Positions 3,664-18,240 of a stretch of DNA of 21,017 nt are shown here, in pieces. This DNA is from a virus, in IMG/VR virus record IMGVR_UViG_3300010339_000017, positions 1 through 21,017 of that record. One strand, given 5' to 3'. Numbering within the stretch: position 1 is the first letter of the stretch; each line of letters begins with the position of its first letter. The position numbers and the translations under genes were made by a program. The notes under the pieces were generated by a model, which saw only the letters and a list, made by a program, of their open reading frames with translations, was not told the DNA's origin and made no database searches.

Positions 3664-4440
3664 GTGGAAACAGGAATGAAGAAAGTCTTATTCACACTTC
3701 AAGTCGGGGGTTATGGCGAGGACATGTCCAAGCTCACCATACCCTTCATGCAGTACCACGCAGACAAGATCGGGGCGGAGTTCCGGGTCATCAAGGAACG
3801 CCGGTGGCCTGAGCTTCCCCCGGTCATGGAAAAGTTCCAGATTTACCACCTGGCGCAGGAAGAGTTCAAGGGTTACGACTGGTTCATTTACTGGGACCTG
3901 GACACGCTGATTCACCCGGATTTCTTCGACGTGACCGCGCTCCTGGGCAAGGACACGACATGTTCGGGCATCACGTCCGATTTCACACCCAACCGGTTCA
4001 AGCCAGACCCGTACTTTCTGCGGGACGGCAGGTTTATCGGCAAGGGCAACTGGTGCGCCATGTTCTCGGACTGGTGCCTGGACTATTACCACCCGCCCGA
4101 GCCGATGACTGCGGAGCATGTCGAGCACTTGGCTCAGAACATCCGGCTGACGGTCGTGGAATCGCGATCCGGCGTCATGCAGCCGAGCCACTTGATTGAC
4201 GATTACTGCGTCAGCCGCAACATCGCCCGCTACGGCCTCAAGCACACGCTCATTTCCGAGATCGCGTCCAAGTTCAACCGGCCCGATATTCCCAACATGC
4301 TCTTTCACCAGTACCTCCACGATATGGACAAGAAGATCGTGATGATGCAGAAGCAGCTCGAACCCCCTACCCAGACCAACCAGAACGGCTGGGGGATCAA
4401 GATCGAGAGTCTGAACGGCAATGGCGAGGTGGCGGCATGA
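3664..4440 (+). CDS. Glycosyltransferase-like protein (GT-A fold, DxD motif)
   Basis: A 258-residue cytosolic enzyme candidate that would transfer a sugar from a nucleotide sugar to an unknown acceptor. The segment KFQIYHLAQEEFKGYDWFIY followed by WDLDTLIHPDF (residues 57-87) has the hydrophobic strand and the D78-x-D80 metal-binding motif of GT-A enzymes such as GT8-like families. GKGNWCAMFSDWCLDYY (about 125-141) may be the acceptor side. The GTG start follows GGGAGG with 7 bases between; an in-frame ATG 12 bases later is an alternative. Its stop overlaps the ATG of the radical SAM gene (ATGA), so the two are translationally coupled. No membrane helix is seen. The acceptor cannot be read from sequence; candidates are virion proteins, the small basic peptides downstream, or host surface glycans. 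Confidence 0.72.
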   Translation: METGMKKVLFTLQVGGYGEDMSKLTIPFMQYHADKIGAEFRVIKERRWPELPPVMEKFQIYHLAQEEFKGYDWFIYWDLDTLIHPDFFDVTALLGKDTTCSGITSDFTPNRFKPDPYFLRDGRFIGKGNWCAMFSDWCLDYYHPPEPMTAEHVEHLAQNIRLTVVESRSGVMQPSHLIDDYCVSRNIARYGLKHTLISEIASKFNRPDIPNMLFHQYLHDMDKKIVMMQKQLEPPTQTNQNGWGIKIESLNGNGEVAA

Positions 4441-5381
4441 GGCCACTCACGGAAATGATCCAATCCGGCATCCAGATCGAGATCACGAACCACTGTCACA
4501 ATAAGTGTTCCAACTGCACGAGGCTGGTCGGGCATCATGCCAAGCCCTACTTCATGGACCTCGCATGGTTCAAGAAGTGCATCGACTCGATGGCGGCAAG
4601 CGGGGGGAGCGACCCGATGAGGTGGCCGGGACTTGTCGGCTTCCTTGGGGGCGAACCCCTGCTCCACCCCGAGTTCGAGGCCCTGTGCGCCTACGCCGCG
4701 AGCAGGTTCCCCAAGAACCAGCTCGGCCTCTGGACCTGTCTGCCCAAGGGCCACGAGGGCTATCGTGACATCATCTGCTCGACCTTCGAGCATATCTTCA
4801 TCAATGACCATTCCCGCGACGATGTGCTGCATACGCCGATCCTGGTGGCTCCACGGTCCACTCCGATCGAACCTTGGGTCGTGGACGTGATCCAGGACAA
4901 ATGCTGGATCCAGAATTCGTGGTCGGCTACCATGAACCCTCGCGGCGCATTCTTCTGCGAAGTGGCCGGGGCATTGTCGATGCTCTTGCAAGACGGCCAC
5001 GGGTGGAAGATTGAACCCGGCTGGTGGCGAAAGGCCCCGAAGCACTTCCGGGCCCAGATGGAAAAGTATTGCTCGGTCTGCGGGGCCGCGTTGCCCATGC
5101 AGCGCCGGGAGAGCGTCGATGGCCGCGATGATGTCTGCCCATGGTGGGCCAAGAAGCTCGAAGAACTCGGCTCACCCAAGTTCAAGGCAGGCAAGACGGT
5201 GCAGGATGGGTTGGTGCTGGGCCAGGACGACCGCCAGTGCGCGACCTACAAGGATATGGAATGGAGAGAGTCCGTGGCGAGCCGCTACGGGATGTTTTTG
5301 ATGCTAAATGACATGGGGTATTGTACACCCTACTTGAGGAAAAATTGGAAAGGAGACTCGAATGGCCAAGAAAAAGGGTAA
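4437..5381 (+). CDS. Radical SAM protein with SPASM-like C-terminal cysteines
   Basis: A 314-residue radical S-adenosylmethionine enzyme. C20-x3-C24-x2-C27 (NHCHNKCSNC) is the 4Fe-4S site and GFLGGEPLLHPEF (68-80) is the GGEP motif that binds the SAM amino group. The C-terminal half adds C156, C174, C212, C215 and C234, spaced like an auxiliary cluster (SPASM or twitch type) of peptide- or protein-modifying members. It starts within the stop of the glycosyltransferase gene (ATGA), and its last 20 bases contain the start of the next small gene, so at least three genes are coupled. The substrate is unknown. The order enzyme-then-short-peptide resembles peptide-maturation loci, but the neighbouring peptides look like DNA-binding tails rather than classical precursors. 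The radical SAM call is firm; peptide modification is inferred. Confidence 0.88.
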   Translation: MRPLTEMIQSGIQIEITNHCHNKCSNCTRLVGHHAKPYFMDLAWFKKCIDSMAASGGSDPMRWPGLVGFLGGEPLLHPEFEALCAYAASRFPKNQLGLWTCLPKGHEGYRDIICSTFEHIFINDHSRDDVLHTPILVAPRSTPIEPWVVDVIQDKCWIQNSWSATMNPRGAFFCEVAGALSMLLQDGHGWKIEPGWWRKAPKHFRAQMEKYCSVCGAALPMQRRESVDGRDDVCPWWAKKLEELGSPKFKAGKTVQDGLVLGQDDRQCATYKDMEWRESVASRYGMFLMLNDMGYCTPYLRKNWKGDSNGQEKG

Positions 5382-5508
5382 GCTCGGCAAGGACGGCGGC
5401 AAGGGTCGAGGCAAGACCACGAAGAAGACCGGCGTGACCAGCAACACCGCATATGGCTCTCACGCAGGTGGCAGTGTGCCTTTAACCGGTGGCGGCAAGA
5501 AGCGCTAG
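5362..5508 (+). CDS. 48-residue Lys/Gly-rich basic peptide
   Basis: A tiny gene with a good AAAGGAG binding site 6 bases before its ATG, overlapping the end of the radical SAM gene by 20 bases. The peptide begins MAKKKGKLGKDGGKGRGKTT and ends TGGGKKR, with 13 Lys/Arg among 48 residues and no cysteine. The next gene's site (AGGAGG) starts in its stop codon, so it sits in a tightly coupled run. It has no recognisable domain. Possible roles are DNA or RNA binding in the packaged head, a minor virion component, or a substrate of the radical SAM enzyme. Most gene callers would skip it for length. The open frame, binding site and tight packing support it being real. Confidence 0.7.
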   Translation: MAKKKGKLGKDGGKGRGKTTKKTGVTSNTAYGSHAGGSVPLTGGGKKR

Positions 5509-5517
5509 GAGGCAGTC

Positions 5518-5667
5518 ATGGCCAAGGAAACAGTCAAGAAGAACAACCATAAGCCGAAGCGCAAGAAGACCAAAGGCTCCGTGGGCAAGAACCTTCTTGC
5601 TCCAGGCAACAAGAAGGTCTCCGGCGCTGGCCGCAGCTCTTACGCAACGCGGGCAGGAGGGCACTGA
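5518..5667 (+). CDS. 49-residue Lys-rich basic peptide
   Basis: A second tiny gene, with AGGAGG 5 bases before the ATG. It begins MAKETVKKNNHKPKRKKTKG and ends SSYATRAGGH, with 14 Lys/Arg in 49 residues concentrated in the first 33. It resembles its upstream neighbour in the MAK start, size, charge and Gly-rich middle (a KxxxxGSVG-type stretch), so the two may be diverged duplicates. Its TGA stop overlaps the ATG of the next small gene (ATGA). The function is unknown; a nucleic-acid-neutralising or packaged peptide is the simplest reading. Confidence 0.7.
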   Translation: MAKETVKKNNHKPKRKKTKGSVGKNLLAPGNKKVSGAGRSSYATRAGGH

Positions 5668-5855
5668 TGGACCTCGTAGGCAGTATCACGAAGCCGAAGA
5701 AACCGAAGAAACTCAAGCTGCCCAAGGCCGCCAAGACCAAGATGCCCAAGCCCAAGAAGCCGCGGAGTGTCAAGGCCAAGGCCCCCAAGAAGTCCAAAGG
5801 GCCTTCCATGGCGAACTTTGTCGCAACACGCAACAAGCAGCTTACAGAGTATTGA
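5667..5855 (+). CDS. 62-residue histone-tail-like Lys/Pro-rich protein
   Basis: The third small basic gene, coupled to the previous one through ATGA. Residues 9-44 are almost entirely Lys, Pro and Ala (KPKKPKKLKLPKAAKTK, then KAKAPKKSKG), very like the tails of histone H1 or of bacterial H1-like proteins. In all, 20 of 62 residues are Lys or Arg. The last 16 residues (SMANFVATRNKQLTEY) are less basic and could form a short helix. No enzyme or membrane feature is seen. DNA compaction inside the capsid is a reasonable inference, but low-complexity Lys/Pro sequence also arises by convergence. Confidence 0.75.
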   Translation: MDLVGSITKPKKPKKLKLPKAAKTKMPKPKKPRSVKAKAPKKSKGPSMANFVATRNKQLTEY

Positions 5856-5880
5856 TCCCGACCCTTAAGGAGGACGTTTC

Positions 5881-6318
5881 ATGCAACCCGTTCCAGCAAT
5901 CGAACCAATCAAGCATTTCCCCTGCATGCTGTACCACAGGGCCAAGCAGCCTATTGTCGTGAAGACCAAGCGTGAGCAGGACGAGGCATTCGTGCAGGGG
6001 TATTCGATGTCCCCCTCCGGCATCACGCAGGAAGAGATGCTGCTCAAGAAAAAGGTCGAGCTGGTGGCTGAGATAGCCGAGATCGACGAGAGCCTTGCCA
6101 TGCTTCGCGGTGGAGTGGAGCCGGAAGACGAACCCGAGCCCGTGAACATGCTCAAGGGCATCGAGGGGGGAATTCCGGTGGAAGAGACACCGGTGCAGGC
6201 AGCCGCTGCCTTGACCGCGCTCTCGCCCGAGGAATTGCGGAAGCAGAAGCGGAATGAATCGCTGCGGTTGGCTCGCGCCGCGCAGAGGGCCAAAAGAGAC
6301 GCGCAGAAAGCATCGTGA
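5881..6318 (+). CDS. Conserved-type phage protein with central coiled coil
   Basis: A 145-residue protein with a strong TAAGGAGG site 9 bases before the ATG. Residues 14-45 (PCMLYHRAKQPIVVKTKREQ, then FVQGYSMSP) match the 'mlYh......vv.t.eEq..a...Gy..sP' pattern that I recognise from many small phage proteins of unknown function. Residues 50-75 (EEMLLKKKVELVAEIAEIDE) form a clear heptad coiled coil. An acidic linker (VEPEDEPEPV) follows, then a basic helix at the end (RKQKRNESLRLARAAQRAKR). It lies just before the gp4-like gene. A virion assembly or scaffold-like role is possible; the exact job is unknown. Confidence 0.75.
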   Translation: MQPVPAIEPIKHFPCMLYHRAKQPIVVKTKREQDEAFVQGYSMSPSGITQEEMLLKKKVELVAEIAEIDESLAMLRGGVEPEDEPEPVNMLKGIEGGIPVEETPVQAAAALTALSPEELRKQKRNESLRLARAAQRAKRDAQKAS

Positions 6319-6339
6319 GGAAAGAATAACCCCGTTCGT

Positions 6340-6358
6340 GATTCGCGATTCGCGAATC
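6340..6358. other. Perfect inverted repeat (8-bp stem, 3-base loop)
   Basis: GATTCGCG, then ATT, then CGCGAATC form a hairpin in the 52-bp gap before the gp4-like gene. The last 12 bases (GATTCGCGAATC) are also a self-complementary palindrome, so this may be a protein-binding site instead. It ends 2 bases before the GAGG binding site of the next gene. There is no T-tract, so it is not a typical terminator. Confidence 0.6.
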
Positions 6359-6370
6359 GTGAGGTGAGCA

Positions 6371-7117
6371 ATGCAGCTCCAGGTTCAAGACATAATCTTC
6401 CTTGCCATGTCCGAATGCGGCGCTGTGAGAATCAACGAGACTCCGGCGCCGTATGAACTAAACCGTGGCATCCAGATCGCGAACATCATGCTCGATCAGT
6501 GGAGCGGTCGCAGGTTGCTGCTCCGCACCACGACCCAGGAGAGTTTCCCGCTGACAGCAGGCGTGGAAAGATACACCATCGGGACCGGGCAGACGTTCAA
6601 CACCACGAGGCCCCTGAGCATCACCGGGGCCTTTATTCGTGACAACTACGGCATCGACACGCCGGTGGAGATCGTGAGCCGGGACAGGTTCGATAGCTAC
6701 CCCGACAAGTCCATCAGCAACGCCAGGCCCATTTCGCTCTACTACGACCCCGGCAACGCCCAGCAGATGAGCCCGCCGGTCGGCGCCATCTGGGTCTACT
6801 ACACGCCGGATTCGTACACACCCTATACCCTCTATATTGACGAGGACAAGTACCTGACCGAGTTCGTCAACGCCACGGACGTGGTTACGTTCGAGCCGGT
6901 GTATTATGACGCGCTCGTGAGCAATTTAGCCGTTAAGCTCTTTCGCCACTACCACAGCCCGAAGGTCCCGATCCCGATGGACATGATGGATGCGGCGGCG
7001 AGTTCACGGAGAATGCTCAGGACTCTGAACACCAAGCCGGTTACGGCAGGGATAGACGTGCCAGGGAAAGCGATGGGGATATATAACATCTACACTGGCA
7101 ATGTGAACGAATACTAG
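6371..7117 (+). CDS. Head-tail adaptor, P22 gp4-like tail accessory protein
   Basis: A 248-residue head-completion protein expected to sit as a ring under the portal. The N-terminal helical part (MQLQVQDIIFLAMSECGAVR, then ELNRGIQIANIMLDQWSGRR) matches the repeating pattern of the podovirus gp4-type family. It is followed by FPLTAGVERYTIGTGQTFNTTRP, the beta insert common to this family, and ends with the helical YYDALVSNLAVKLFRHYHSP. P22 gp4 itself is shorter (about 166 residues), but environmental phages often carry this longer form. The GAGGTGAG site lies just before the ATG. A gp10-like gene follows 10 bases later, the standard P22 order gp4-gp10, which strengthens both calls. Confidence 0.85.
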   Translation: MQLQVQDIIFLAMSECGAVRINETPAPYELNRGIQIANIMLDQWSGRRLLLRTTTQESFPLTAGVERYTIGTGQTFNTTRPLSITGAFIRDNYGIDTPVEIVSRDRFDSYPDKSISNARPISLYYDPGNAQQMSPPVGAIWVYYTPDSYTPYTLYIDEDKYLTEFVNATDVVTFEPVYYDALVSNLAVKLFRHYHSPKVPIPMDMMDAAASSRRMLRTLNTKPVTAGIDVPGKAMGIYNIYTGNVNEY

Positions 7118-7127
7118 GGGGTCCGCG

Positions 7128-8615
7128 ATGGAAGTCCAATTCCTCGGCCCGAGTTTCAGCGGCCGGTCCAATGCAATCGACCCATCCCGCTGCATCAACT
7201 TCTACCCCGAGCTGAACCTCAACCCCGCCGGTAAGTCCAAGACCTCGCTTATCGGCACGCCCGGAACCAGCCTGATCGTGGATTGCGGCAACGGTGGCCC
7301 GGTTCGTGGCCTGTATGAATTCGGCGGGGTGCTGTATATCGTATCGGGCGCCGAGGTATTCTCGTGGAACGGGAGCAGTCTCGCGGTTGTCGGGGTCTTG
7401 GCCACGGCGACCGGCCCGGTCTATATCGAGGACAACGGCCTCACGGCTTACGGCGTCGGGGGCAATCAGATGATGATTGCCGATTCAGTCGGCGGGTATG
7501 TCTGGAACCCGGTCACGAGCGTGTTCACACAAGTTGCCCTGCCTAATGTCCCGATCTCGCTGGCCTTCATGGACGGGTACTTTCTTATTGCCGGGGCCAA
7601 CTCCCAGACGATCTACGCCAGTAATCTCTACGACGGAACCGTGTGGCCCGGTCTAGCTGTCGGCAACGCGGTCAGTAGCACCGGCACCCTCACGGGCATC
7701 ACGGTCTACGACGAGCTGCTGTTCGTGTTCAAGGACAACTGTGGCGAACCGTGGTACGACGCGGGAACGCCGCCGGTGTCCCTGGGCATGCCATTCCAGA
7801 AGTACCAGGGCATTCCGATCAATTACGGCGTCGTGGCGCCACAGTCGGTGGCGCAAGGGGGTGATTTCCTCTACTGCCTCGGTAGCGACGGCAGCGATGT
7901 GCAGGTGATAGGCTGGTCAGGGTACACGCCCAAGCCATTGCTGCCGCCAGCACTTGCCAACCGGGTCTCCCGGCTGCCGGTTGTATCGGATGCAATCGGG
8001 TTCACGTACAGCGATTCCGGCCACATGTTCTATGTCCTGACCTTTCCCACGGGCAACCTAACGCTGGTTTACGACCACACGACCCAGATGTGGCATGAGC
8101 GGTCAACCTACTCGCCCAATGCGCCGAGACGGAACCCGAACCGCTGGGCGGCGAATTGTTATTGCTACTTCAACGGGCAGCATACGGTGGGGGATTACCA
8201 GACCGGCCAGGTGTGGGCCATGGGGAGCCAGTATTATACCGATTGCGGCAACCCGATAATCTCGACCCGGATCGCGCCGATCATGCATGACAAGGAATCC
8301 TGCACCGATCTCTACTTCTACGCGCTCTACATTGATGCTGAGGTCGGTATGGGGTTCAACCCGGTCGTGACGGACACCGATACAGACATGCAGATACCGA
8401 TCATCGGGACCCCGAAAGCCTTCCTGTCATGGAGCATCGACGGTGGGTACACCTGGAGCAATGAATACGAGGCCGCTATGGGCCAGCAGGGGCAGTATCT
8501 CACCCGGCTCATCTGGCGGCGTATCGGTGGCAGCTTCAACATGGTGTTCGATGTCACGATCAGCGATCCGATATATAAGGTTCTCGTTAATACCTTCGTG
8601 GACGTGAGTGATTGA
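7128..8615 (+). CDS. Packaged DNA stabilisation (plug) protein, P22 gp10-like
   Basis: A 495-residue protein, close to the 472 of P22 gp10, which closes the portal channel after packaging and connects the adaptor to the tail needle. The N-terminus (FLGPSFSGRSNAIDPSRCIN and FYPEL) and the next part (TSLIGTPGTSLIV, RGLYEFGGVLYIVSG) match the family's 'N.yPE....k....L.gTPGl' opening. The rest is a string of beta blades in propeller style (SLAFMDGYFLIAGANSQTIY, ITVYDELLFVFKDN). An AGGGGGT site precedes the ATG. Its TGA overlaps a possible TTG start of a hidden small ORF. Order and length agree with the P22 tail-machine block. Confidence 0.85.
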   Translation: MEVQFLGPSFSGRSNAIDPSRCINFYPELNLNPAGKSKTSLIGTPGTSLIVDCGNGGPVRGLYEFGGVLYIVSGAEVFSWNGSSLAVVGVLATATGPVYIEDNGLTAYGVGGNQMMIADSVGGYVWNPVTSVFTQVALPNVPISLAFMDGYFLIAGANSQTIYASNLYDGTVWPGLAVGNAVSSTGTLTGITVYDELLFVFKDNCGEPWYDAGTPPVSLGMPFQKYQGIPINYGVVAPQSVAQGGDFLYCLGSDGSDVQVIGWSGYTPKPLLPPALANRVSRLPVVSDAIGFTYSDSGHMFYVLTFPTGNLTLVYDHTTQMWHERSTYSPNAPRRNPNRWAANCYCYFNGQHTVGDYQTGQVWAMGSQYYTDCGNPIISTRIAPIMHDKESCTDLYFYALYIDAEVGMGFNPVVTDTDTDMQIPIIGTPKAFLSWSIDGGYTWSNEYEAAMGQQGQYLTRLIWRRIGGSFNMVFDVTISDPIYKVLVNTFVDVSD

Positions 8616-8764
8616 GGAGGGGAAGTGAAACGGTTGATCCTTGCTGCTGCCGTGCGATTTGCACCGATACCTCCGCCAACGCTTCCGTCAAATGCAGTGT
8701 TTCCGGCACAACTCTTACGATCACCGGAACGGGATCGGATTATATTAACTGGCTTTGCTTCTAG
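8612..8764 (+). CDS. Hidden 50-codon Cys-rich beta ORF with unusual start
   Basis: A short open frame filling the gap after the gp10-like gene, different from the longer frame that overlaps it. It reads as a plausible protein: VDPCCCRAICTD, then VKCSVSGTTLTITGTGSDYI and NWLCF, with six cysteines and alternating beta residues. It ends exactly at the binding site of the next gene (TAG 8762-8764). No ATG or GTG occurs in frame. TTG at 8612 overlaps the upstream stop (TTGA) but lacks a site of its own. ACG at 8630 has an ideal AGGAGGGG 7 bases upstream, so the true start may be this rare codon or a lost ATG, giving 44 residues. No homologue is claimed. A sequencing error or a decayed gene are alternatives. 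Confidence 0.4.
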   Translation: MRRGSETVDPCCCRAICTDTSANASVKCSVSGTTLTITGTGSDYINWLCF

Positions 8765-8772
8765 AGGAATCA

Positions 8773-9315
8773 ATGGCGACCAATGCGCCCCAACCACTTC
8801 CGTCTTCTGCTGAACCCATCTCGGCCAATTCGCTTGCATGGAGAAAGCAGTTTGACACCGTATGGAAGCTATTGAGCAGCCTGATCACGGAACAGGGCAA
8901 TCTGGCCAATGCCTCGACCGGGTTGGGTGTGGCCGGGGATTTCGTGACGCTCAACGCCAACGGGGATCTGCAAGACGCCGGGTTGAACCCGAGTCTCGCG
9001 GCTCTCCAGCATAATCATTCCAACGCTGCGACCGGCGGGAATCTTGCCAACACCGGGCCGAGTGTAGGGGGTGGAGTGTTCACTCTCCTGACCGGCCAGA
9101 GCAACGTGGTCGTAAGCGACGCCAACGTGACCGCGAATTCGGCAATAACCTTCTCCCCCACCAATGCCAACGGCGCCGGGTTGATTCAATCCTCAACCCT
9201 CGGGCCCTATGAGGTGGTAGCGAATCGCGCACCGGGAGCGTCTTTCACGATCCAGACGTATTCTGGAGGCGCTAGCACGCTCACGGCGAATTACCAGTAC
9301 GTGAGGGTGGGATGA
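8773..9315 (+). CDS. Tail needle or short fibre-like protein
   Basis: A 180-residue structural protein. Position after the gp10-like gene is where P22 has its tail needle (gp26). Residues 20-45 form a helical segment (SLAWRKQFDTVWKLLSSLIT). The middle has GDFVTLNANGDLQDAGLNPS, a connector motif common in phage fibres. The end (SAITFSPTNANGAG, then GASFTIQTYSGGASTLTANY) is the beta-rich tip seen in many tail proteins. The start ATG has AGAGG at short spacing; an in-frame TTG 18 bases earlier is unlikely. Its stop overlaps the ATG of the GNAT gene (ATGA). A needle tip or fibre role is inferred from context; the family is not certain. Confidence 0.7.
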   Translation: MATNAPQPLPSSAEPISANSLAWRKQFDTVWKLLSSLITEQGNLANASTGLGVAGDFVTLNANGDLQDAGLNPSLAALQHNHSNAATGGNLANTGPSVGGGVFTLLTGQSNVVVSDANVTANSAITFSPTNANGAGLIQSSTLGPYEVVANRAPGASFTIQTYSGGASTLTANYQYVRVG

Positions 9316-9845
9316 TCGAGCTGCGGCCATTCACACGCAATGACATCCCGGCGATGTTCAAGATCGCTAAAGAGCACGAACCCTTTGCCGAGTTCGTGGG
9401 GCCCGAGCAGGCAGTGGCGTCGTTATTGAGGCAGGAGGGTTGGGTGTTTTGCGAGAATGGCGTCGTGGTAGGACATGTGACTCTCTCCGACTTCAGGGTG
9501 CTTCATTCCGTACTGCTCCATGCCACAATCATTCCAGCCTGCCGGGGTAAATGTATCAGCGCCCGGGCCCTTCGCACTATATTCGGGCGCCTGTTTGACC
9601 CGGATAGTCTGGATCTCGTCAAGGTCTATGCTTACGCCGTGATGGGGAAAACGTATCAGGCAGCGAGGACACTGGACGATCTTGGGTTTAGCCGCGAAGG
9701 TGTGGACAGGCATGGTCTCGTACTGCCGGATGGGAGAATGTTCGATATATTGAAGTATGCAATGTTACGGGAGGAATGTCCGTGGATCAGGACCAAAGCC
9801 GAGATTCGCGCATGGCTGGCAGGGAGGCGTAATGAACCTCGGTGA
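9312..9845 (+). CDS. GNAT-family N-acetyltransferase-like protein
   Basis: A 177-residue protein of the fold that moves an acetyl group from acetyl-CoA to an amine. It opens with IELRPFTRNDIPAMFKIAKE, the usual GNAT strand-helix start. Strands VVVGHVTLSD and LLHATIIPACRGKCISARAL cover motif A, with R78-G79 in the CoA-phosphate turn. The end (LGFSREGVDRHGLVLPDGRM, then FDILKYAML) follows the RimJ/RimL-like pattern. It is coupled to the needle-like gene (ATGA) and overlaps the next gene by 14 bases. The target could be a protein amine, an aminosugar or a small molecule. Phage structural blocks sometimes carry GNAT genes of unknown substrate. Confidence 0.78.
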   Translation: MIELRPFTRNDIPAMFKIAKEHEPFAEFVGPEQAVASLLRQEGWVFCENGVVVGHVTLSDFRVLHSVLLHATIIPACRGKCISARALRTIFGRLFDPDSLDLVKVYAYAVMGKTYQAARTLDDLGFSREGVDRHGLVLPDGRMFDILKYAMLREECPWIRTKAEIRAWLAGRRNEPR

Positions 9846-10860
9846 CAGCGCGGCCTGCGCGCCCTCGATCACGTTCGCGTTCTACCCGACGCATGTTCAC
9901 TGGAACGCGGGGATCGCGCAACTGTCCGCAATATGCAAGTCTTGGGGTATCCGAACCAACCTCGCGGTTCTCGACTGGTTCACGCCGGGTGAGTTCCACC
10001 CGCCAAGTGACATTGTAGCGTTCTCAGCGGTTCACGAGGGGGATTATCGGGCCTCAATCGGCTACATGAGGAAAGCCAAGGCGCTCGGCAAGAAAGTGAT
10101 CCTGGGTGGTGTCTGGGCAGGTCTGGGCAAGCCTGTGGACGGCAGCGTGGATCACGTATGCCGGGGCGATGGCGAGGAGCTGGTGGAATGGATATTGGGC
10201 GGCGACGAGAGGGTATTCCGCGAATGGCGGATTACGCATGACTTGAACAGCCTCCCGGTTGCCGATTACGAGATATTCGAGGGTGTGGAGTTTGACCGTT
10301 GCCTGGGACCGTTCATGGGCAAGAAGGTGTTGCCGTATTTATCGAGTCGCGGGTGCCTCGGACGCTGTTCGTTCTGCCAGACACGGTTTCAGCCTCCGGG
10401 AAGAAGAATCAGGACCAAGGTTGAAGAAGACCTGATGCCGCTGCTGGAGCGGTATCGACCCGATGGGGTCCACCTCGCTGATGCCCAGTCGCCGTACGAC
10501 GATCCTGCATGGAAAGCCTCTTGGGGCGATCTGCGCGTGCCGTTCGGGTGTTACATCCGGGCGGACATTGAACCGGATGACCTCGACTGGTTGATTGACC
10601 GTGGCATGCAGGCGTGCGCGTTTGGTGTGGAAGCGGGCGACGAGAGGTTCAGGAATGAAGTCTTGAAGAAAGACGTTACCGATGCCCAGATCAAGAGCCT
10701 TGTGGACCGGCTGCGGCACAACGGGGTCTTCTATATCCCCTTCTACATGACAGGCATTCCGGGCGAAGGCTGGATCGAGCAAACTCGCACGCTCCAGGCC
10801 ATGAAGCGGTTTGGCGGCGCCCCGATGTTGTGGCAGTACCAGGACCTCGGAGGTCTCTGA
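9832..10860 (+). CDS. B12-binding-type radical SAM enzyme
   Basis: A 342-residue enzyme. Start: the ATG after AGGGAGG, overlapping the GNAT gene by 14 bases; an ATG 75 bases earlier in the same frame has no site. Residues 10-125 look like a cobalamin-binding Rossmann-like domain (GKKVILGGVWAG; then VDHVCRGDGEELVEWILGG, the 'vD.v..GeGE' motif). The radical SAM core carries C175-x3-C179-x2-C182 (SSRGCLGRCSFCQ), FGVEAGDERFRNEVLKKDVT (264-283) and the FYMTGIPGE turn (304-312). The classic B12 Asp-x-His-x-x-Gly loop is not obvious, so the cofactor may be lost. Such enzymes do methylations or carbon-carbon rearrangements. It ends soon after the core, without a long C-terminal domain. The substrate is unknown. 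Confidence 0.85.
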   Translation: MNLGDSAACAPSITFAFYPTHVHWNAGIAQLSAICKSWGIRTNLAVLDWFTPGEFHPPSDIVAFSAVHEGDYRASIGYMRKAKALGKKVILGGVWAGLGKPVDGSVDHVCRGDGEELVEWILGGDERVFREWRITHDLNSLPVADYEIFEGVEFDRCLGPFMGKKVLPYLSSRGCLGRCSFCQTRFQPPGRRIRTKVEEDLMPLLERYRPDGVHLADAQSPYDDPAWKASWGDLRVPFGCYIRADIEPDDLDWLIDRGMQACAFGVEAGDERFRNEVLKKDVTDAQIKSLVDRLRHNGVFYIPFYMTGIPGEGWIEQTRTLQAMKRFGGAPMLWQYQDLGGL

Positions 10861-10902
10861 CAGTTAATCCTTACGAGGGCTCCCCGGAGCAAGGAGAATA
10901 TC

Positions 10903-11871
10903 ATGGCGGCGATAGGCGGGATAGTAGCAGGTGTAGGCAGCGCGGCTGGCGGTATAATGTCCGGTATGGGGGCGCAGAACGCGGCAAGCACATCGGCCAG
11001 TGCTCAAGAGCAGATGCTCCAAACCGCCATAGGTCTGCAATGGCCGCAGATCACATCCGGGTATCAGGCGCTAGGGTTGCAGGACTACATGCTCGGACTA
11101 GGACCCAAGCCCGGTACTCTCAACTCGAATATGCTGACTGCCAGTAGCATGACCCCGGTGCAGCAGAGGACGTTCGCGTCAACCCTTCCCGGTGTCTGGC
11201 AGCAGATAGTCAAAAATGGTGGCCAACTATCGTGGGGCGCACTATCGACCCCGCAACAGCAGGAGCTTATGAATTCCATGCCTGCCGTGGCGGAAGAGAT
11301 GATGGGTGTGGGTTCCAGCACGAGCGCTCTTGGTTCGCAGTACGGCTACGGATCGCTCTTGCAGCCATTCACGGCCCAGCAGATGTATCAGGACCCAGGG
11401 TACCAGTTCCGGCTGCAATCCAGCCAGAACGCGCTCCAGTCGGCAGCGGCAGCAAGCGGGACATACGGTAGCGGGACCATGGCGCAGGCGTTGCAGCAAA
11501 ACGCCGGGAACCTCGCCTCGCAGGAGTACGGAGCAGCGTATCAGCGGTACCTCGAACCGTTCTCACTGCTCGGCGCCATATCCGGGCAGGGAGCGAGTGC
11601 CGCGAGCGGTGCTGCTGGATTGACCGGTGCGGCTGGATCGAGCATTGGCAACACACTGATGCAAGGTGGTATGGCGGGCGCCCAGGCCATGGGCCAGGGC
11701 ATCAACAGCGGATTTGGCGCGCTGCAATCGGGGTTGAACAACTACGCCACGAACACGAACATACAGAACCTATTGTCACAGTTGGCTTACACGCAACAGT
11801 ATAACGCAGGGAATACTCCTATGAGCAGCGACTATTACAACCCCACTGCTGGTCCTATCGGAAGTTACTAG
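10903..11871 (+). CDS. Ejection (internal virion) protein, DNA-transfer type
   Basis: A 322-residue protein with a Gly/Ala-rich N-terminus (AAIGGIVAGVGSAAGGIMSG) that could insert in membranes. Residues 154-217 (PFTAQQMYQDPGYQFRLQSS, then GTYGSGTMAQALQQNAGNLA and SQEYGAAYQRYL) match a motif I recognise in many podovirus genes next to ejection proteins ('DPGYqFRl.qG..Al...aAa.Gg..SG....L..ygq.laS.EY..ay.R'). The last third is Gly/Ala/Ser-rich with helical tendency. CAAGGAGAATATC precedes the ATG. Two larger ejection candidates follow. It probably corresponds to the gp7/gp14/gp20 set that forms the trans-envelope channel. Confidence 0.75.
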   Translation: MAAIGGIVAGVGSAAGGIMSGMGAQNAASTSASAQEQMLQTAIGLQWPQITSGYQALGLQDYMLGLGPKPGTLNSNMLTASSMTPVQQRTFASTLPGVWQQIVKNGGQLSWGALSTPQQQELMNSMPAVAEEMMGVGSSTSALGSQYGYGSLLQPFTAQQMYQDPGYQFRLQSSQNALQSAAAASGTYGSGTMAQALQQNAGNLASQEYGAAYQRYLEPFSLLGAISGQGASAASGAAGLTGAAGSSIGNTLMQGGMAGAQAMGQGINSGFGALQSGLNNYATNTNIQNLLSQLAYTQQYNAGNTPMSSDYYNPTAGPIGSY

Positions 11872-11885
11872 TCAAGGAGATTGAC

Positions 11886-14333
11886 ATGGCCGATGACAAT
11901 ACCGACTACAGCCCGAGTCAAGACCCAAACAGCGTCATGCCGCTGCCTCCGGGAACCGTCACCAATATGCTGGCGCAGAACATGTTCCCGAATCCGTGGT
12001 ATAGGTTCCTGGCAGGCATGGGCGCGTACCATCCTGTTGCTGCTGCCCAGAACGCCCTGGGGCTCGCTACAAGCGCCGATGAGCGGCAGAACCAGATGTA
12101 TTTGAACAGGATCAACTACGAAGCGGCGAAGATGAACGGTATGCAGCAGGGGGGCCCGCCACTCGGGGGTGGACCGCCGCCTGTAGCGCCGCAGATCGCG
12201 CCACAAGCAGCGGCGCCGGGGCAGAATATGCTCGGTGGGGGTGGGGGTGGGGGTGTATCGGTTGGAGGCGCTCCACAACTTCATGCTCTTGCCCAATCTG
12301 CGGCTGCCCAATTCGGGCTGCCCCCAAAGCTCGCGGAGGGAGTAATCGGAGCCGAATCTGGGTGGAACCCCAATGCAGTGTCCCCCAAGGGCGCTCAGGG
12401 CCTGATGCAGCTCATGCCGGGTACTGCAAGAGACTTGGGTGTGACCGATGCCTTTAACCCGGAGCAGAACCTCCTCGGTGGCACAGCATACCTCAGCCAG
12501 CAAATGCAGAGATTTGGCAATGACATACCCAAGGCCCTTGGAGCATACATTGCCGGTCCCGAAGCCGTGGCTCAAGCAGTCCAAGCAGGTGGCGAGGACT
12601 GGATCAATCATCTTCCTCCTGGCAAGATCGGACCAACCAAGGCATATATTGCAGATGTAGAGCGCAGAATGCAGGGGGCTGACTTCCCTGGACCGTACAA
12701 GGGTGGAATGATGGGTGGCGGTGGTCTTGCTGGTGGACAACCCAACATGTCCCAGATGACTGCGAGCACCGACCCGAGGTTCGTGCCTCAAGCCCCCGAC
12801 CAGGCTCAAGCCCCCGACCAGGCTCAAGCCCCACCCACTCAGTTCCCCGCTCCGATCGGCGGTATCCAGAATGAATCCGGCTGGTCCGGCTGGCGGAACC
12901 ATGTCTCGGCTGAACCCGCACTTCGCTACCCCGCTGCGTTGCTCGCAGCCTCCCCGCAGTTGTTGCAACAGGTCAAGGTCGAGGAAGCCCAGCAGGAGGC
13001 GTATGGCGCGGCATTTAACGCTTCGCTGGAACAGGGCATGGCCAAGTGGTCGCGTATGAACCTCGATGACGCCACCAAGCAAAAGATGAAGAACGACTGG
13101 ATCGACAGGCAGCTCGCCCCGATGCTCTTTGACGCGAAGACGGGCAATCTGAAAGACCCGCGAATGGGGGATGCGGCGAGAAAACTGGCGATAGCGCGGG
13201 ATGCGGATATATCGGGGCCGCCGAATAAATATTCCGTTACCGCTAAAATCACCCCGACCTTGATCCGTGCCATGGAACGGTACGGCCTGCCACCGGACAT
13301 GATACAGCTCGCGCAGGAGAACCCAGGCAAGGAAGCCACATGGGGGAACGATCCCAAGACCGGTCCTGGCCTAGCCATTGTCGAGCCCAAGGGAGCGGAA
13401 GAGAAGAACCAAACAAAGGAACAATTAACCAATATATGGCTGCACGATCCTGATCCCGTAAAGAGCAAGCAGGCGAAAGAAAATCTCGACGCTATAGAGC
13501 AATCCGAGATCAGAGTGGCGGGAGCAAAGACCGGGGCAACTGAGAAGGCTAAAAGGGAGGTTGCTCAAACAGATCCAAACGCTTTTGCTAATTGGCCCGA
13601 AGATAGGAAGAAGACTCAGTACGAAATAGCCCTCCATGGTGGCAAACCACCACAGTTCGCGTGGCGTGATGCAGAATCCCGAAACGCCTATTCAGCAGGT
13701 TACGCCCAATACGTGATAGACAAATACCAAGAGCAAGGTGGGGCTAAATCGGAAACAGAAAAGGCTATATTTTCATCTGACAAGGATTCCCTCGATTCCA
13801 TTACAAAGGGCATGGACATGATTAAAGCGTTCGAGGTTGGGGCTGACCAGAGCTTAGACCTCCTGGCAGAAACCGCTGACAGATACGACCGGGGGGAATA
13901 TCCAAAGGCCAACGAGTGGAAACAGATATTTGCTTACTATACTGGAGACAAGGACATCCGGGCCTTTCAGAACGTGCTTGTTACCTCAGCCACAGAATAT
14001 GTGAAGGTAATCAATGCTGGCCCGACTCCGACCGCTGCGGAACTTTCTGTTATGGGCCAGCAACGGGCCAAGGAGATGATTGCTGCTGCCGATACACCGG
14101 AGCAGCTTAAGAATGAAATCGACAAAATGAGGCAGGAAATGGCAATAAGCAGCAATAAGCTAACGCAACAGCGCGAGTCTATCGTGAACCGTATGGAAAC
14201 AGGGGTGCGTGGTGGGTCTTCCACTGATGCCGCTAGCAAGGTAGACTGGATGGAGCGTGCAAAGGCAGCCAACCCAGCCTACAGTGAAGATCAACTTGAA
14301 GAAATGTGGAAACGCAAGAACGGAGGGAAATAA
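11886..14333 (+). CDS. Internal virion protein with lytic transglycosylase (SLT) domain
   Basis: An 815-residue ejected protein that would cut peptidoglycan during DNA entry. Residues about 135-262 hold a soluble lytic transglycosylase domain: EGVIGAESGWNPNAVSPKGA with catalytic-position E157, then QGLMQLMPGTA (171-181) and LLGGTAYLSQQM. The usual AYNAG motif reads AYIAG (220-224). Before the domain comes a Pro/Gly-rich linker with a Gly run; after it a QAPDQA repeat (18-bp unit, 12789-12832). The C-terminal 450 residues are helical and charged, with no recognised domain. AAGGAG lies 6 bases before the ATG. Its TAA overlaps the next ATG by one base. It is comparable in concept to T7 gp16, with the SLT domain at the N-terminal side. 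Confidence 0.85.
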   Translation: MADDNTDYSPSQDPNSVMPLPPGTVTNMLAQNMFPNPWYRFLAGMGAYHPVAAAQNALGLATSADERQNQMYLNRINYEAAKMNGMQQGGPPLGGGPPPVAPQIAPQAAAPGQNMLGGGGGGGVSVGGAPQLHALAQSAAAQFGLPPKLAEGVIGAESGWNPNAVSPKGAQGLMQLMPGTARDLGVTDAFNPEQNLLGGTAYLSQQMQRFGNDIPKALGAYIAGPEAVAQAVQAGGEDWINHLPPGKIGPTKAYIADVERRMQGADFPGPYKGGMMGGGGLAGGQPNMSQMTASTDPRFVPQAPDQAQAPDQAQAPPTQFPAPIGGIQNESGWSGWRNHVSAEPALRYPAALLAASPQLLQQVKVEEAQQEAYGAAFNASLEQGMAKWSRMNLDDATKQKMKNDWIDRQLAPMLFDAKTGNLKDPRMGDAARKLAIARDADISGPPNKYSVTAKITPTLIRAMERYGLPPDMIQLAQENPGKEATWGNDPKTGPGLAIVEPKGAEEKNQTKEQLTNIWLHDPDPVKSKQAKENLDAIEQSEIRVAGAKTGATEKAKREVAQTDPNAFANWPEDRKKTQYEIALHGGKPPQFAWRDAESRNAYSAGYAQYVIDKYQEQGGAKSETEKAIFSSDKDSLDSITKGMDMIKAFEVGADQSLDLLAETADRYDRGEYPKANEWKQIFAYYTGDKDIRAFQNVLVTSATEYVKVINAGPTPTAAELSVMGQQRAKEMIAAADTPEQLKNEIDKMRQEMAISSNKLTQQRESIVNRMETGVRGGSSTDAASKVDWMERAKAANPAYSEDQLEEMWKRKNGGK
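12234..12255 (+). repeat. Short G-run tract within the SLT gene
   Basis: The DNA reads GG-T then three runs of five G separated by single T, and a final TG, encoding a poly-glycine linker. It is a potential G-quadruplex and slippage site just before the transglycosylase domain. Coding frame is kept. Confidence 0.7.
12789..12832 (+). repeat. 18-bp tandem repeat coding QAPDQA
   Basis: Two full copies and part of a third of the unit CAAGCCCCCGACCAGGCT sit in the linker after the SLT domain. The copies are identical at DNA level, so the duplication is recent. Confidence 0.85.
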
Positions 14334-16660
14334 TGGCTAACCTGCCGGAGTTTATTGACCCTGATACCGGAAAGCCCCTCCCGGCGTTTGGGGTTGATCC
14401 TACAAAGCCGGATAATCGCATATTTGAGCAGAAGAACCCCCAGAAGGCCAAAGAGATCGAGGGTAAAGGTCGTGTAGAACTGTTCCTCAAAGGTGTTGGT
14501 TCCGGCCTCCAGAACATGATGGAAAACATAGGTCAATTTGCAACTACAGTGGGCGGCAGGATGGCGCCGGGGGAAGACACGCGGAAATTCACCCGTGATA
14601 TTGGCGAACGCTTGACCAAGGAATCTGAGCAGCGACGATCCGAGTTTGAGCCCTATAAGCAATATGGCCCGTTCACTGGCTACGCGAAGGGCGGGGAGTT
14701 TCTCGGGGAGACTGCACCGTGGCTGCTTGCCGGACCCGAGCTTGGCGGAGAGTCGCTTCTTGGCCGGACTGCTGGTGGCGCAGCGATGGGTGGTTTGATG
14801 GGGGCGACCGAGTTCGTGCCCCCAAGCACCAAGAATCCTCTCGCGCAAAGGGGAACAAATCTTCTGACTGGCGCCGGGGCAGGCGCCTTGGGTGGCCTTG
14901 GTGGTGGGTTGCTGACCAAGACCGGCAAGGCGGCAGCAGGGAGTGTACCGGCGACCGAGACTCGGCAACTGGCCGAGAAAGAGGGTGTCCGTGACCTCAC
15001 GTATGCTGAGGAGAAAACCGGTCAGAGTAGTTGGTCCGACCAGATGAGAGAACATCTTCCCTCGTGGCTGGGTGGGATAAAGCCGCTGCGAGAACGACAG
15101 GCTGCCGATGCCGAATCTGCCATGGCAAGCCACTTTGCCCAGTACACTGTGGACCCTGCGTCGGGATCGACCGAGGCCATGAGAGTGGCCAATGACGAGC
15201 ACCTCGATAAAATGTACGAGCAGGTGAGAAAGAACGCGCCTCTTGTTCCGCATGGGAAAGCAGAGAACACGAAGATCGTTGTGGGGCAGTTGCGGAAAGA
15301 CTACCCTGGAGTCTTCGAGGCAATACAGAATTCGAGGGCCAAGTCGATACTCAATAACATCGGGGGAGAGTTGAAAGACAAGAAAGTCGAGACAATGACT
15401 CTTGACAAGTCCGGGAACCCTATCACCAGAATGGAACCTCCTGATTTTAGTTTCGACGATCTGTGGGCGTTAAGAAAGAATCTTGGTAAAGAGATTGGCT
15501 CGGCCAAGGACAACATAGCGCATGGCGCGTACAGTCAGCTCTACGGGGCAGTGTCGGATGATATTGACAGGATGCTCGAAGCTGCTCCTGGCGCCGCCTT
15601 TGCTGATTTCAAGAAAGCCAATGCGGATTATAAGCAGTACGGGGTAAAGTTTGATGCTCTCCGGGATGCTTACGACAAGGCAATGGGCACTACCGGTTCG
15701 AGCGGCATGTTCTCGCCCCAAGCCTACGCTAAGGAATTGCGGAACTTGGCCAATGATCCGAAGTATAAGAAGAATGTGAAATGGACCGAAGAGGAGATTG
15801 GCAAGATGAGCGGGCTGGCAAATGTTCTCCAGGTAGTGAATCGGTCAGCTCAGTACATGCAGAATCCGCGTACAGGGTACAGTCTCATTCCTTTCGCTCT
15901 TGCAGGGCTCAGTGAGGAAACAGCCCACGTTATGGGGATGTCGGGGACAGGTAGCATCGAGGCCACAGCAGGGTCAGTGGGTGCTCTGGGGGCAGCGGGC
16001 CTTGTTTCCAAATTCCTCACCACCACGCGATTCGGCAAGGACCTGCTCATGGCAGCGGCCAAGGTTGAGCCGGATAGCCAGGGTATGCAGTGGATAATGT
16101 GGCATCTGTACTCGAAGATACCGCAGTATGCTGCATCTGAGGCAGCGATGAGAGGTGCAAGGAAGGATACACCCATGCCGAGTGGGGAGAAGCAACCACC
16201 GCAGCCTGCAAACCCTAACCAGGCCCAGGGGCAAGAGGCGCCGATCCCTGGGCGGCAGGAGGGTGGACCAGTGGAGAAGCAGGAACCAAAATACGAACCT
16301 GCCAGCAATGAAGGTGGGCCAAAACCCCTGGAGCGGGGAAATATAGACTACAATACCCGACCGGCTGTGAAGCTACCAGACGGTAAAGTAGCATCGGTCA
16401 GGTCGATAACCATTACTGGAGAAAAGGGTGCATATCTAATCCCCACTGTAGCGGATGATGGCCGGATAATGAGCAACAGGGAGGCGGTGGAACAGTTTAA
16501 TAAAACTGGGAAGCATCTGGGTCGGTTTAAAACTGAAGAGGACGCAGACAGGTATGCTGAAATGCACCATGCTGAGATGGGGCCGCAGGATAAGCTGAAG
16601 GCATTAGAGGAAAAGCCCAAGAAAGCATGGGGGAAGAAGAAGGAAGAACCGAATGACTGA
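14333..16660 (+). CDS. Large ejection (internal virion) protein
   Basis: A 775-residue protein, start ATG overlapping the previous stop (TAATG) after CGGAGGG. The N-terminal half has Gly/Ala-rich hydrophobic segments (GRTAGGAAMGGLMGA, LLTGAGAGALGGLGGGLL) that could cross a membrane. The middle (200-500) is helical and charged. Another hydrophobic stretch lies near 565-585 (AGSVGALGAAGLVSKFL). After a Pro/Gln-rich linker, residues 669-748 form a compact domain (GNIDYNTRPAVKLPDGK, then AYLIPTVADDGRIMSNREAV and TGKHLGRFKTEEDADRYAEM) that I recognise as recurring at the ends of large internal virion proteins. The tail is Lys/Glu-rich. Context with the SLT protein suggests the ejectosome. Its last 8 bases overlap the ATP-grasp gene. 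Confidence 0.78.
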   Translation: MANLPEFIDPDTGKPLPAFGVDPTKPDNRIFEQKNPQKAKEIEGKGRVELFLKGVGSGLQNMMENIGQFATTVGGRMAPGEDTRKFTRDIGERLTKESEQRRSEFEPYKQYGPFTGYAKGGEFLGETAPWLLAGPELGGESLLGRTAGGAAMGGLMGATEFVPPSTKNPLAQRGTNLLTGAGAGALGGLGGGLLTKTGKAAAGSVPATETRQLAEKEGVRDLTYAEEKTGQSSWSDQMREHLPSWLGGIKPLRERQAADAESAMASHFAQYTVDPASGSTEAMRVANDEHLDKMYEQVRKNAPLVPHGKAENTKIVVGQLRKDYPGVFEAIQNSRAKSILNNIGGELKDKKVETMTLDKSGNPITRMEPPDFSFDDLWALRKNLGKEIGSAKDNIAHGAYSQLYGAVSDDIDRMLEAAPGAAFADFKKANADYKQYGVKFDALRDAYDKAMGTTGSSGMFSPQAYAKELRNLANDPKYKKNVKWTEEEIGKMSGLANVLQVVNRSAQYMQNPRTGYSLIPFALAGLSEETAHVMGMSGTGSIEATAGSVGALGAAGLVSKFLTTTRFGKDLLMAAAKVEPDSQGMQWIMWHLYSKIPQYAASEAAMRGARKDTPMPSGEKQPPQPANPNQAQGQEAPIPGRQEGGPVEKQEPKYEPASNEGGPKPLERGNIDYNTRPAVKLPDGKVASVRSITITGEKGAYLIPTVADDGRIMSNREAVEQFNKTGKHLGRFKTEEDADRYAEMHHAEMGPQDKLKALEEKPKKAWGKKKEEPND

Positions 16661-18188
16661 TCTCGTTCCCGCTATCCGCGTGGATAAGTACGGCAAGCTC
16701 TACGTCGGCTCCCCCGGCCAATGCCACGACGAGGTGTGCAAGCGGTATCGGGTGAACGTGTTCGACGACGATCAGAGAGGATTTAGTCATGACGGAGGTG
16801 CAACTTTCCTACCCCGCAAGGAGGCTGCCGGTTGGCTTAAAGAGAATAATTCCACCTTGTGGGAAGAAGTGAAATCTCAAGTTGGACCAGAGGGATTACA
16901 TTCACATCATCTTTCTCCTACTGTAGATATCTCAATGAAATCATTACTATTTATAGACAGAGGAGGCTTATACGTTTGGATGGCCCAGGAACTCGGCAAG
17001 GCATACCGCCACGTGTGGTATCACCTGCTGGATTCTTCCCCTTACAAGCAGTCCAACCTGTCGGACATCGGGACCGGGCTGCCGGAAATCCAGCGGGTGG
17101 ATGAGCTTGAATCGTACCTCGATAGAGCCGATATTGTCTATTTTCCCGACATTTACGATGGAAAGCGGCAACACTGGTTGCGTGAATCAGGACATCGTGT
17201 GTTCGGCTCTGGCCGCAGTGATGTGATTGAACTGGACAAGATTGGGTTCCTCGACCGGCTGGAGCAGGTGGGACTCCCTGTACCGGAAACAGAACTCGTC
17301 CACGGCGCCGAGGAACTCTGCCTCTTCCTGCGTAACCGGAAACCTAGCGACTGGTGGATCAAGCCACTATATCGCGGAGATGGAGAAACCCGAAAGTTCA
17401 CTGGCATGAAGCATCTCCGCAACTGGATCGAGCAGGACCTTGTGCCAAGAATCGGCAAACGCGCTGAGACTGTCCCATTCCTCGTTCAAGCAAAGATCGA
17501 GTCCAAGACTGAACCTGGCTGGGACGGGATGCAGGTGGATGGGCAATACACCTCCTGCTGTGCCGGGTACGAGGTCAAGGACCAGGGTCTTGTCACAAGA
17601 GTCTTTGGCCGTGACGAGACACCCGAGATCCTGGACCACGTGAACCAAGCGATGGCTCCATTCTTCAAGGAGCTGGGTATTCGCGGGCATTACTCGACCG
17701 AGATCAGGGTCACGGAAGACGGTGAGCCATACTTTATCGACCCAACCTGTCGCATACCGAGTCCAGCAGGAGAACTGTTCCCGAGACTCTACAAGAACTA
17801 TCCCGAGGCCGTGTGGCAAGTAGCGTGCGGATTGGTGCCTCAGCTCGAACCCGCTGCCAAATACGGCGCCGAGGTCGTTCTCGTGAGCCCGTTCGCGGAC
17901 AAGCACGAGATATGCGTGGAGTTTCCCGGGGAGCTTTCCGGCCACATCATGCTCAAGTCCCACTGCAAGCGTGACGGGGCATATTATTGCATTCCGGGGC
18001 AACCGGGAACATCAGGGTATTTCTGCTGCGTGGTCACATGGGGTGACGACTGGCGCGAGTGCGGCAAGGAGGCGATGGAGATCGTGAAAGAGATCGTGAC
18101 CGAGGAGATTGAATACGAAGAGGGTCTGTTCGACGAGGCCGAGAAGGCGATAGAAGGGGGCAAACAGTATGCAGGGATCGAGTTTTAA
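16653..18188 (+). CDS. ATP-grasp ligase-like enzyme fused to a small phage N-terminal domain
   Basis: A 511-residue protein. Residues 1-92 resemble a stand-alone phage protein (RGFSHDGGATFLPRKEAAGW, then GLHSHHLS, compare the 'GF....GrF.dR.EA...A......LhSeDL' pattern). From M95 (MKSLLFIDRGGLYVWMAQEL) an ATP-grasp enzyme begins: pre-ATP domain to about 190, PSDWWIKPLYRGDGET with K237, PFLVQAKIES (275-284), and the metal-side strand YSTEIRVTEDGEPYFIDPTC with D363, echoing PurD-like ligases; the usual Asn after the acidic residue is Thr. ATP-grasp enzymes join a carboxylate to an amine or thiol. The start overlaps the previous gene by 8 bases. DNA around the fusion (about 16845-16985) is AT-rich compared with its surroundings. 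The substrate is unknown; peptide or aminosugar ligation are options. Confidence 0.75.
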   Translation: MTDLVPAIRVDKYGKLYVGSPGQCHDEVCKRYRVNVFDDDQRGFSHDGGATFLPRKEAAGWLKENNSTLWEEVKSQVGPEGLHSHHLSPTVDISMKSLLFIDRGGLYVWMAQELGKAYRHVWYHLLDSSPYKQSNLSDIGTGLPEIQRVDELESYLDRADIVYFPDIYDGKRQHWLRESGHRVFGSGRSDVIELDKIGFLDRLEQVGLPVPETELVHGAEELCLFLRNRKPSDWWIKPLYRGDGETRKFTGMKHLRNWIEQDLVPRIGKRAETVPFLVQAKIESKTEPGWDGMQVDGQYTSCCAGYEVKDQGLVTRVFGRDETPEILDHVNQAMAPFFKELGIRGHYSTEIRVTEDGEPYFIDPTCRIPSPAGELFPRLYKNYPEAVWQVACGLVPQLEPAAKYGAEVVLVSPFADKHEICVEFPGELSGHIMLKSHCKRDGAYYCIPGQPGTSGYFCCVVTWGDDWRECGKEAMEIVKEIVTEEIEYEEGLFDEAEKAIEGGKQYAGIEF

Positions 18189-18240
18189 GGCGCAGGGTCT
18201 TGGAATTGGTTGCGGCAGCGCGGTGGGGGAGGATGAACCG

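Follow-up and report, generated by a model that had tools for sequence, protein, structure and literature searches.

A glycosyltransferase and radical SAM gene pair in the late block of a P22-like virus probably decorates the virus particle with an unusual sugar

To our knowledge, particle glycosylation is known from few phages only. In mycobacteriophages, glycosyltransferases of the phage itself glycosylate the virion (Freeman et al. 2023, cited in PMC12619734), with a capsid or tail tube subunit as the acceptor. In pelagimyophages, which are myophages of SAR11, variable host-recognition islands carry GT8-type glycosyltransferases and radical S-adenosylmethionine (SAM) cassettes beside tail-fibre genes; no fixed pair of the two was reported, and O-chain modification was the favoured role (PMC7029224). 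Each of the two gene kinds has also been noted separately in the vicinity of phage tail-fibre genes (PMC7029224, PMC7150976). Here we describe a 21,017 bp viral record (IMG/VR IMGVR_UViG_3300010339_000017), analysed whole and called the window below, which carries a glycosyltransferase gene (GT) and a radical SAM gene (rSAM1) in the late block of a P22-like podovirus. An original prediction, made from the letters of the DNA, had placed five enzymes in this block in one direction, and all five (GT, rSAM1, a GNAT acetyltransferase, a second radical SAM protein, rSAM2, and an ATP-grasp enzyme) were found on the + strand within 3664-18188. Its remark that no such phage system had been described holds for the full set in the literature searched, but not for glycosyltransferases and radical SAM genes near tail-fibre genes. 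As in the mycobacteriophages, the GT is phage-encoded and a virion protein is its proposed substrate; the hosts and GT families differ, and the literature found, which includes the mycobacteriophage work as cited elsewhere, mentions no radical SAM partner. The pelagimyophage islands were likened to the window by gene description.

GT (3676..4440, +) and rSAM1 (4437..5381, +) overlap by 4 bp and form a true cassette. An alignment search found rSAM1 at 43 viral loci, and in all 37 of those closest to that of the window (L010-L046) GT lay upstream of rSAM1, at a distance of up to about 6 kb and mostly adjacent. The remaining 6 of 43 loci, without GT, were divergent, and those that were placed in the tree fell outside the phage clade. 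The reverse linkage was looser: 33 of 80 GT loci had rSAM1 within the DNA available, and 29 of the 76 newly retrieved ones had a Methyltransf_24-like domain, often fused to GT. A Methyltransf_24-like methyltransferase or an NAD-dependent sugar-nucleotide epimerase often lay between or beside GT and rSAM1. Locus L004 encodes an rSAM1 fused to a Methyltransf_24-like domain, and L005 one fused to GT2. In phages other than the P22-like ones, the cassette was found near major head genes of unrelated families and near genes for terminase, internal virion proteins, tail or collagen-like fibres. Most of these relatives are metagenomic fragments, and gene calls in the GC-rich loci are mechanical. Genes for GIY-YIG-like homing endonucleases, recognised by motif, were seen between GT and rSAM1 at four loci (L019:3522-4100, L023:2512-3321, L033:4294-4998 and L044:7361-7987), and HNH genes near several cassettes; homing endonucleases may help to move the cassette.

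The conserved start of GT is the ATG at 3676; the GTG at 3664, from which the original prediction had begun the gene, lies four codons further upstream, so that the gene stands and its start is corrected. No Pfam, PHROG or NCBIfam family matched GT. The DxD motif (D74, D76) seen earlier was invariant across 31 relatives, as was H211. The AlphaFold2 model was confident (predicted local distance difference test, pLDDT, 94.4) and showed a GT-A fold, and a Foldseek search with it gave 174 PDB matches at E<=0.001, 50 of which were listed, all of them GT-A enzymes. The closest PDB fold was the capsid glycosyltransferase A64R of the algal virus PBCV-1 (E 2.9e-6), at about 10% identity and a template modelling (TM) score of about 0.5; A64R has no radical SAM partner. 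Likeness to the GT34/A64R family is thus at the level of fold, with no sequence-family match, as TM-scores of about 0.5 are evidence of fold and not of family. The model identifies GT as a GT-A glycosyltransferase.

Structure prediction served less well for rSAM1, whose model was poor (pLDDT 50, from an alignment of six sequences). Its cluster motif CxxxCxxC, also noted earlier, reads CHNKCSNC, and C20, C24 and C27 were invariant in 129 sequences, as were C156, C174, C212 and C215, whose spacing suits one auxiliary 4Fe-4S cluster. This pattern makes rSAM1 a radical SAM protein, probably twitch-like, with a putative single auxiliary cluster. The Pfam Radical_SAM model matched rSAM1 below its cut-off (E 0.015), no NCBIfam model scored above cut-off, and a PDB profile search gave superfamily-level matches only, with BtrN a weak one (E 0.004). 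The likeness of rSAM1 and rSAM2 to BtrN- and AprD4-type radical SAM sugar enzymes lies in the radical SAM core. In a tree of 129 proteins, 48 phage sequences formed one clade (SH-like approximate likelihood-ratio test, SH-aLRT, 99). Among 50,697 phage records we found no full-length rSAM1 counterpart, the best match having 25% identity over 59%.

In P22-like phages the cassette occupies a variable slot, here called slot A, which reaches from the coat gene and its neighbour fib590 to the head-tail adaptor. In the window group slot A holds GT and rSAM1, and in L003, L017 and their kin it holds GT, an epimerase and rSAM1. Other sugar enzymes take the place elsewhere: a GT-A-like protein (by eye) and two methyltransferases in L006; a hexapeptide sugar acetyltransferase and a GT2 in G021, where the GT2 has the flagellin transferase GmaR as its top PDB match; several glycosyltransferases, a methyltransferase-like gene and large fibres in G022; and a methyltransferase with an A197-like transferase in ctTUS972. 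L006, G021 and G022 came from searches with Hc3 or ATP-grasp, independently of GT and rSAM1, so that the repeated presence of sugar enzymes in the slot is not an artefact of the search. The annotated P22-like phages PAE2, PBR31, DSL-LC05, P26218 and ctNMl277 have no enzyme annotated in slot A, and none of them matches fib590. Such variability would also be expected if the enzymes were modular morons, that is, fitness genes unrelated to one another and to the virion that gathered where the late operon tolerates insertions, serving for instance nucleotide-sugar or purine metabolism, with the PurD-like ATP-grasp as an auxiliary metabolic gene. The homing endonucleases inside several cassettes and the wide distribution of homologues of all the enzyme classes fit this explanation as well. 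However, random cargo would not be expected to show the strict pairing of GT with rSAM1 or the recurrence of non-homologous sugar enzymes in one slot, and we regard it as improbable.

Bacterial relatives of rSAM1 were also found among sugar genes. GT2 genes made up 40 of 93 immediate neighbours, and epimerases and FkbM methyltransferases were present. The sister group of the phage clade comprised Scalindua, Trichlorobacter and Desulfuromonadaceae, with TPR-GT41 or TPR-GT2 genes. In two of the three sister-group loci (Trichlorobacter L054 and Desulfuromonadaceae L090), rSAM1 was flanked by OGT-like TPR-GT41 genes, and flagellin was the third gene downstream. OGT-type GT41 enzymes use proteins as substrates. 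These two loci share with the window an rSAM1 homologue next to a structural protein gene, here with glycosyltransferases of protein type; they differ in GT family and in having a cellular flagellin rather than a virion protein, and the role of rSAM1 there is likewise putative. Directly 3' of the TPR-GT41/rSAM1 cluster lie flagellin, FlbT-like and FlaF-like genes (L054:13530-16027; L090:13546-15586), and by gene content each locus appears to be an island for flagellin glycosylation that includes a radical SAM gene. A literature search on flagellin glycosylation and radical SAM gave one paper, on an unrelated matter, and no description of such an island. Enzymes of the phage clade, together with those of the bacterial sisters linked to flagellin, would offer a direct enzymatic route to the function of this radical SAM family.

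Several independent lines thus point to modification of virion proteins, one of the targets suggested at the outset, and the pair of GT and rSAM1 probably equips the virion with an unusual sugar. On balance we favour, with modest confidence, a virion surface protein glycosylated with a radical-SAM-edited sugar, next to separate late modifications. Glycosylation of a virion protein is the best reading because GT41 enzymes have protein substrates, the enzymes are soluble, the GT fold is near that of the PBCV-1 capsid transferase and the neighbours are late structural genes; the slot contents of G021, G022 and L006, including the GmaR-like GT2 and the other glycosyltransferase and methyltransferase genes, were counted in its favour. 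We infer acceptor, donor sugar, reaction and biological role as follows. The soluble GT would attach a sugar to a virion surface protein of the same operon, most likely one of the two encoded just upstream of it: fib590 (1442..3172, +), a head-fibre-like virion structural protein with weak PHROG structural matches, is a candidate glycan acceptor, and p119 (3184..3543, +), small, rich in Ser, Thr and Asn and present in two copies in L002 and G001, is a candidate decoration protein. fib590 is kept 3' of the coat gene in L002, G001, L003, L017, L006, G021 and G022, with no match among the 50,697 phage records. rSAM1 would use radical chemistry to oxidise, epimerise or deoxygenate the sugar, acting on the nucleotide sugar or after transfer, and in other phages a methyltransferase or epimerase would join or replace it. 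Cassettes may be swapped in and out of the slot after the coat gene, so that particle glycans would differ between relatives, perhaps for escape from anti-phage recognition or for tuning of adsorption. As a tentative extension, virion glycosylation systems of this kind may form a family widespread among phages, encoded in a swappable coat-side slot, whose radical SAM enzyme remodels the sugar of capsid or fibre proteins into glycans absent from the host. If so, complex virion sugar chemistry, with a GT and radical SAM pair conserved in many uncultured phages, would be common yet missed.

The main rival is modification of the host surface, in which GT, rSAM1 and their partners alter host lipopolysaccharide, capsule or precursors at a late stage of infection, so that other phages are excluded or progeny do not re-adsorb to debris. 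Some of our data weigh on its side and against virion glycosylation. Most other bacterial rSAM1 relatives lie in polysaccharide-type clusters rich in GT2 and epimerase genes, which fit a cell-surface glycan equally well, flagellin is near only 3 of 77 bacterial rSAM1 loci, and the pelagimyophage authors proposed O-chain modification for glycosyltransferases of tail-fibre islands (PMC7029224). The matches to A64R and GmaR are only at fold level or distant in sequence. The structural neighbour of the cassette varies in non-P22 phages (in one the cassette follows the terminase), so that adjacency alone, described here locus by locus, cannot name the acceptor. Enrichment of N-glycosylation sequons was limited to two window proteins, p119 and the tail fibre, and was not reproduced in relatives, and acceptor and sugar are candidates only. 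Against the host-surface explanation, no transmembrane segment was predicted in any of the five enzymes, and no flippase, polymerase or membrane partner accompanies them; expression with the late genes would be late for superinfection exclusion, and the nearest bacterial relatives of rSAM1 stand at flagellin genes. We therefore consider it unlikely and retain glycosylation of a virion protein as the preferred reading.

All five enzymes recur together. Among relatives whose length allows a five-gene comparison, the closest is G001 (= L138, 64 kb), with a coat about 85% identical; there the five have the same order and places, with identities of 66% (GT), 68% (rSAM1), 53% (GNAT), 65% (rSAM2) and 70% (ATP-grasp). 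L002 (19 kb) has the first four in the same order and ends before the site of ATP-grasp. In these relatives the genes were not scattered singly, in agreement with the original prediction. Pairwise ratios of nonsynonymous to synonymous substitution were 0.07-0.22 for GT, rSAM1, GNAT and rSAM2 in the comparisons that allowed computation, with synonymous sites near saturation; these values are similar to those of structural genes and place these four enzyme genes under purifying selection. Because of this conservation of order and the low ratios, the five-gene arrangement is not due to chance.

The predicted GNAT N-acetyltransferase (9312..9845, +) and rSAM2 (9832..10860, +) make up slot B. GNAT matched a PHROG acetyltransferase (phrog_1249, E 1.3e-5) and Pfam below cut-off (E 4e-4), and has 57% identity to its L002 counterpart. 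rSAM2 starts at 9832, the open reading frame (ORF) from 9757 being over-extended; it matched Radical_SAM above cut-off (PF04055, E 7.6e-9) and, as a profile match, AprD4 (E 1.8e-6). It is a putative member of the B12-binding class, with NCBIfam B12-rSAM models matching partially and below cut-off, and a weak PF02310 match in relative L018 only. rSAM2 was seen only in the window, L002 (70% identity), G001 and L018 (37%). In L018 a different GNAT, which passes the family cut-off, adjoins it, and an acetyltransferase 3' of the tail genes and 5' of the ejection proteins is found in PBR31 (as annotated) and L018. Pairing of GNAT with rSAM2 is rarer than that of GT with rSAM1.

Slot C holds the ATP-grasp enzyme (16653..18188, +), for which no direct Pfam match and no NCBIfam match was found. 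By profile-profile comparison (hhalign), its residues 94-485 (about 390) are homologous to L004 phage proteins (probability 98%, E 2e-13) that themselves match GARS_A at E 8e-17, which points to a PurD-like ATP-grasp. PurD proper (phosphoribosylglycinamide synthetase) was not supported, the window protein having no Pfam or NCBIfam match above cut-off. Counterparts with 27-42% identity occupy the same place in L221, L223, L224 and L225, and in the window, G001, G005, L221, L223 and L225 ATP-grasp is encoded after the last ejection protein and ahead of the tail fibre. The small protein p146 (18169..18609, +), with a conserved LHE(L/V)xE motif, directly follows ATP-grasp in three lineages (48% identity in G001, 33% in L221) and is possibly its partner.

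It had been suggested that the five enzymes form one pathway. In such a scheme, leading to a single complex modification, ATP-grasp would supply a sugar or amino acid that is then acetylated, radical-edited and transferred. The shared order of the enzymes in the window and G001, the presence of all four possible in L002, the company of ATP-grasp with GT and rSAM1 in G005 and the PurD-like ATP-grasps of L004 and L030 speak for it. The modules separate in relatives, however: the contigs L221, L223 and L225 have ATP-grasp at its usual place but no GT or rSAM1; GT often lacks rSAM1; and an ordinary P22-like phage, PBR31, also has an acetyltransferase after its tail genes. The enzymes fall into three modules: GT with rSAM1, accompanied by a methyltransferase or an epimerase; GNAT, alone or beside rSAM2; and ATP-grasp. 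Across phages each module differs from the others in range and in place. One five-enzyme pathway was therefore rejected as very doubtful. GNAT with rSAM2, and ATP-grasp, would be separate late modification modules beside tail proteins, which share expression but are not demonstrably one pathway.

The window is the late block of a P22-like podovirus, with P22-type coat, SU10/P22 adaptor, Hc3 and ejection proteins in order. The + strand order is coat, fib590, p119, GT, rSAM1, p145, adaptor, Hc3, p186, GNAT, rSAM2, ejection protein, SLT protein, p784, ATP-grasp, p146 and tail fibre. Besides that of GT and rSAM1, the predicted stop/start overlaps were confirmed for p186/GNAT (4 bp), GNAT/rSAM2 (14 bp) and p784/ATP-grasp (8 bp). 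The P22-type major coat protein (26..1324, +) matched PF11651 (E 1.9e-35) and phrog_283 (E 1.8e-61). p145 (5881..6318, +) is a small charged head-block protein with 64% identity to its L002 counterpart, and the SU10/P22-type head-tail adaptor (6371..7117, +; PF24175, E 6.8e-7; phrog_12985), the far border of slot A, is followed by the head closure protein Hc3 for stabilisation of packaged DNA (7128..8615, +; phrog_578, E 1.6e-81). p186 (8773..9315, +), 50% identical to its L002 counterpart, is short and tail-fibre- or spike-like, with a weak K1-lyase C-terminal match below cut-off (E 4.7e-4). The gp7-like DNA-ejection protein (10903..11871, +; phrog_598, E 3.8e-9) precedes an internal virion/ejection protein with an SLT lytic transglycosylase domain (11886..14333, +; PF01464, E 4e-27). 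By position and size, p784 (14333..16660, +) is a large ejection protein, with counterparts 5' of ATP-grasp in G001 (1432 aa) and L221 (1243 aa). The tail fibre protein (18613..20523, +) matched phrog_4492 (E 7.5e-24). A DNA-level search of phage records with the window gave no match.

Downstream of rSAM1, a gap of about 500 bp (5382-5880) holds no convincing gene; A is strongly over-represented on its + strand (AT skew about 0.3), and a 157-aa ORF there looks spurious. The coat gene, intact in the window, is split after codon 18 in L002:3667-5354 (by about 0.4 kb) and in G001 (L138):12221-14347 (by about 0.8 kb). The two inserts are intron-like and share a related small ORF (EERFEFRGTHV...WKCCKC); an Rfam search gave no matches, and the coat insert is thus not identified as a known intron. 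At L002:11031-11291, the adaptor gene carries an in-frame insert of about 87 residues, between codons 72 and 76, relative to the window.

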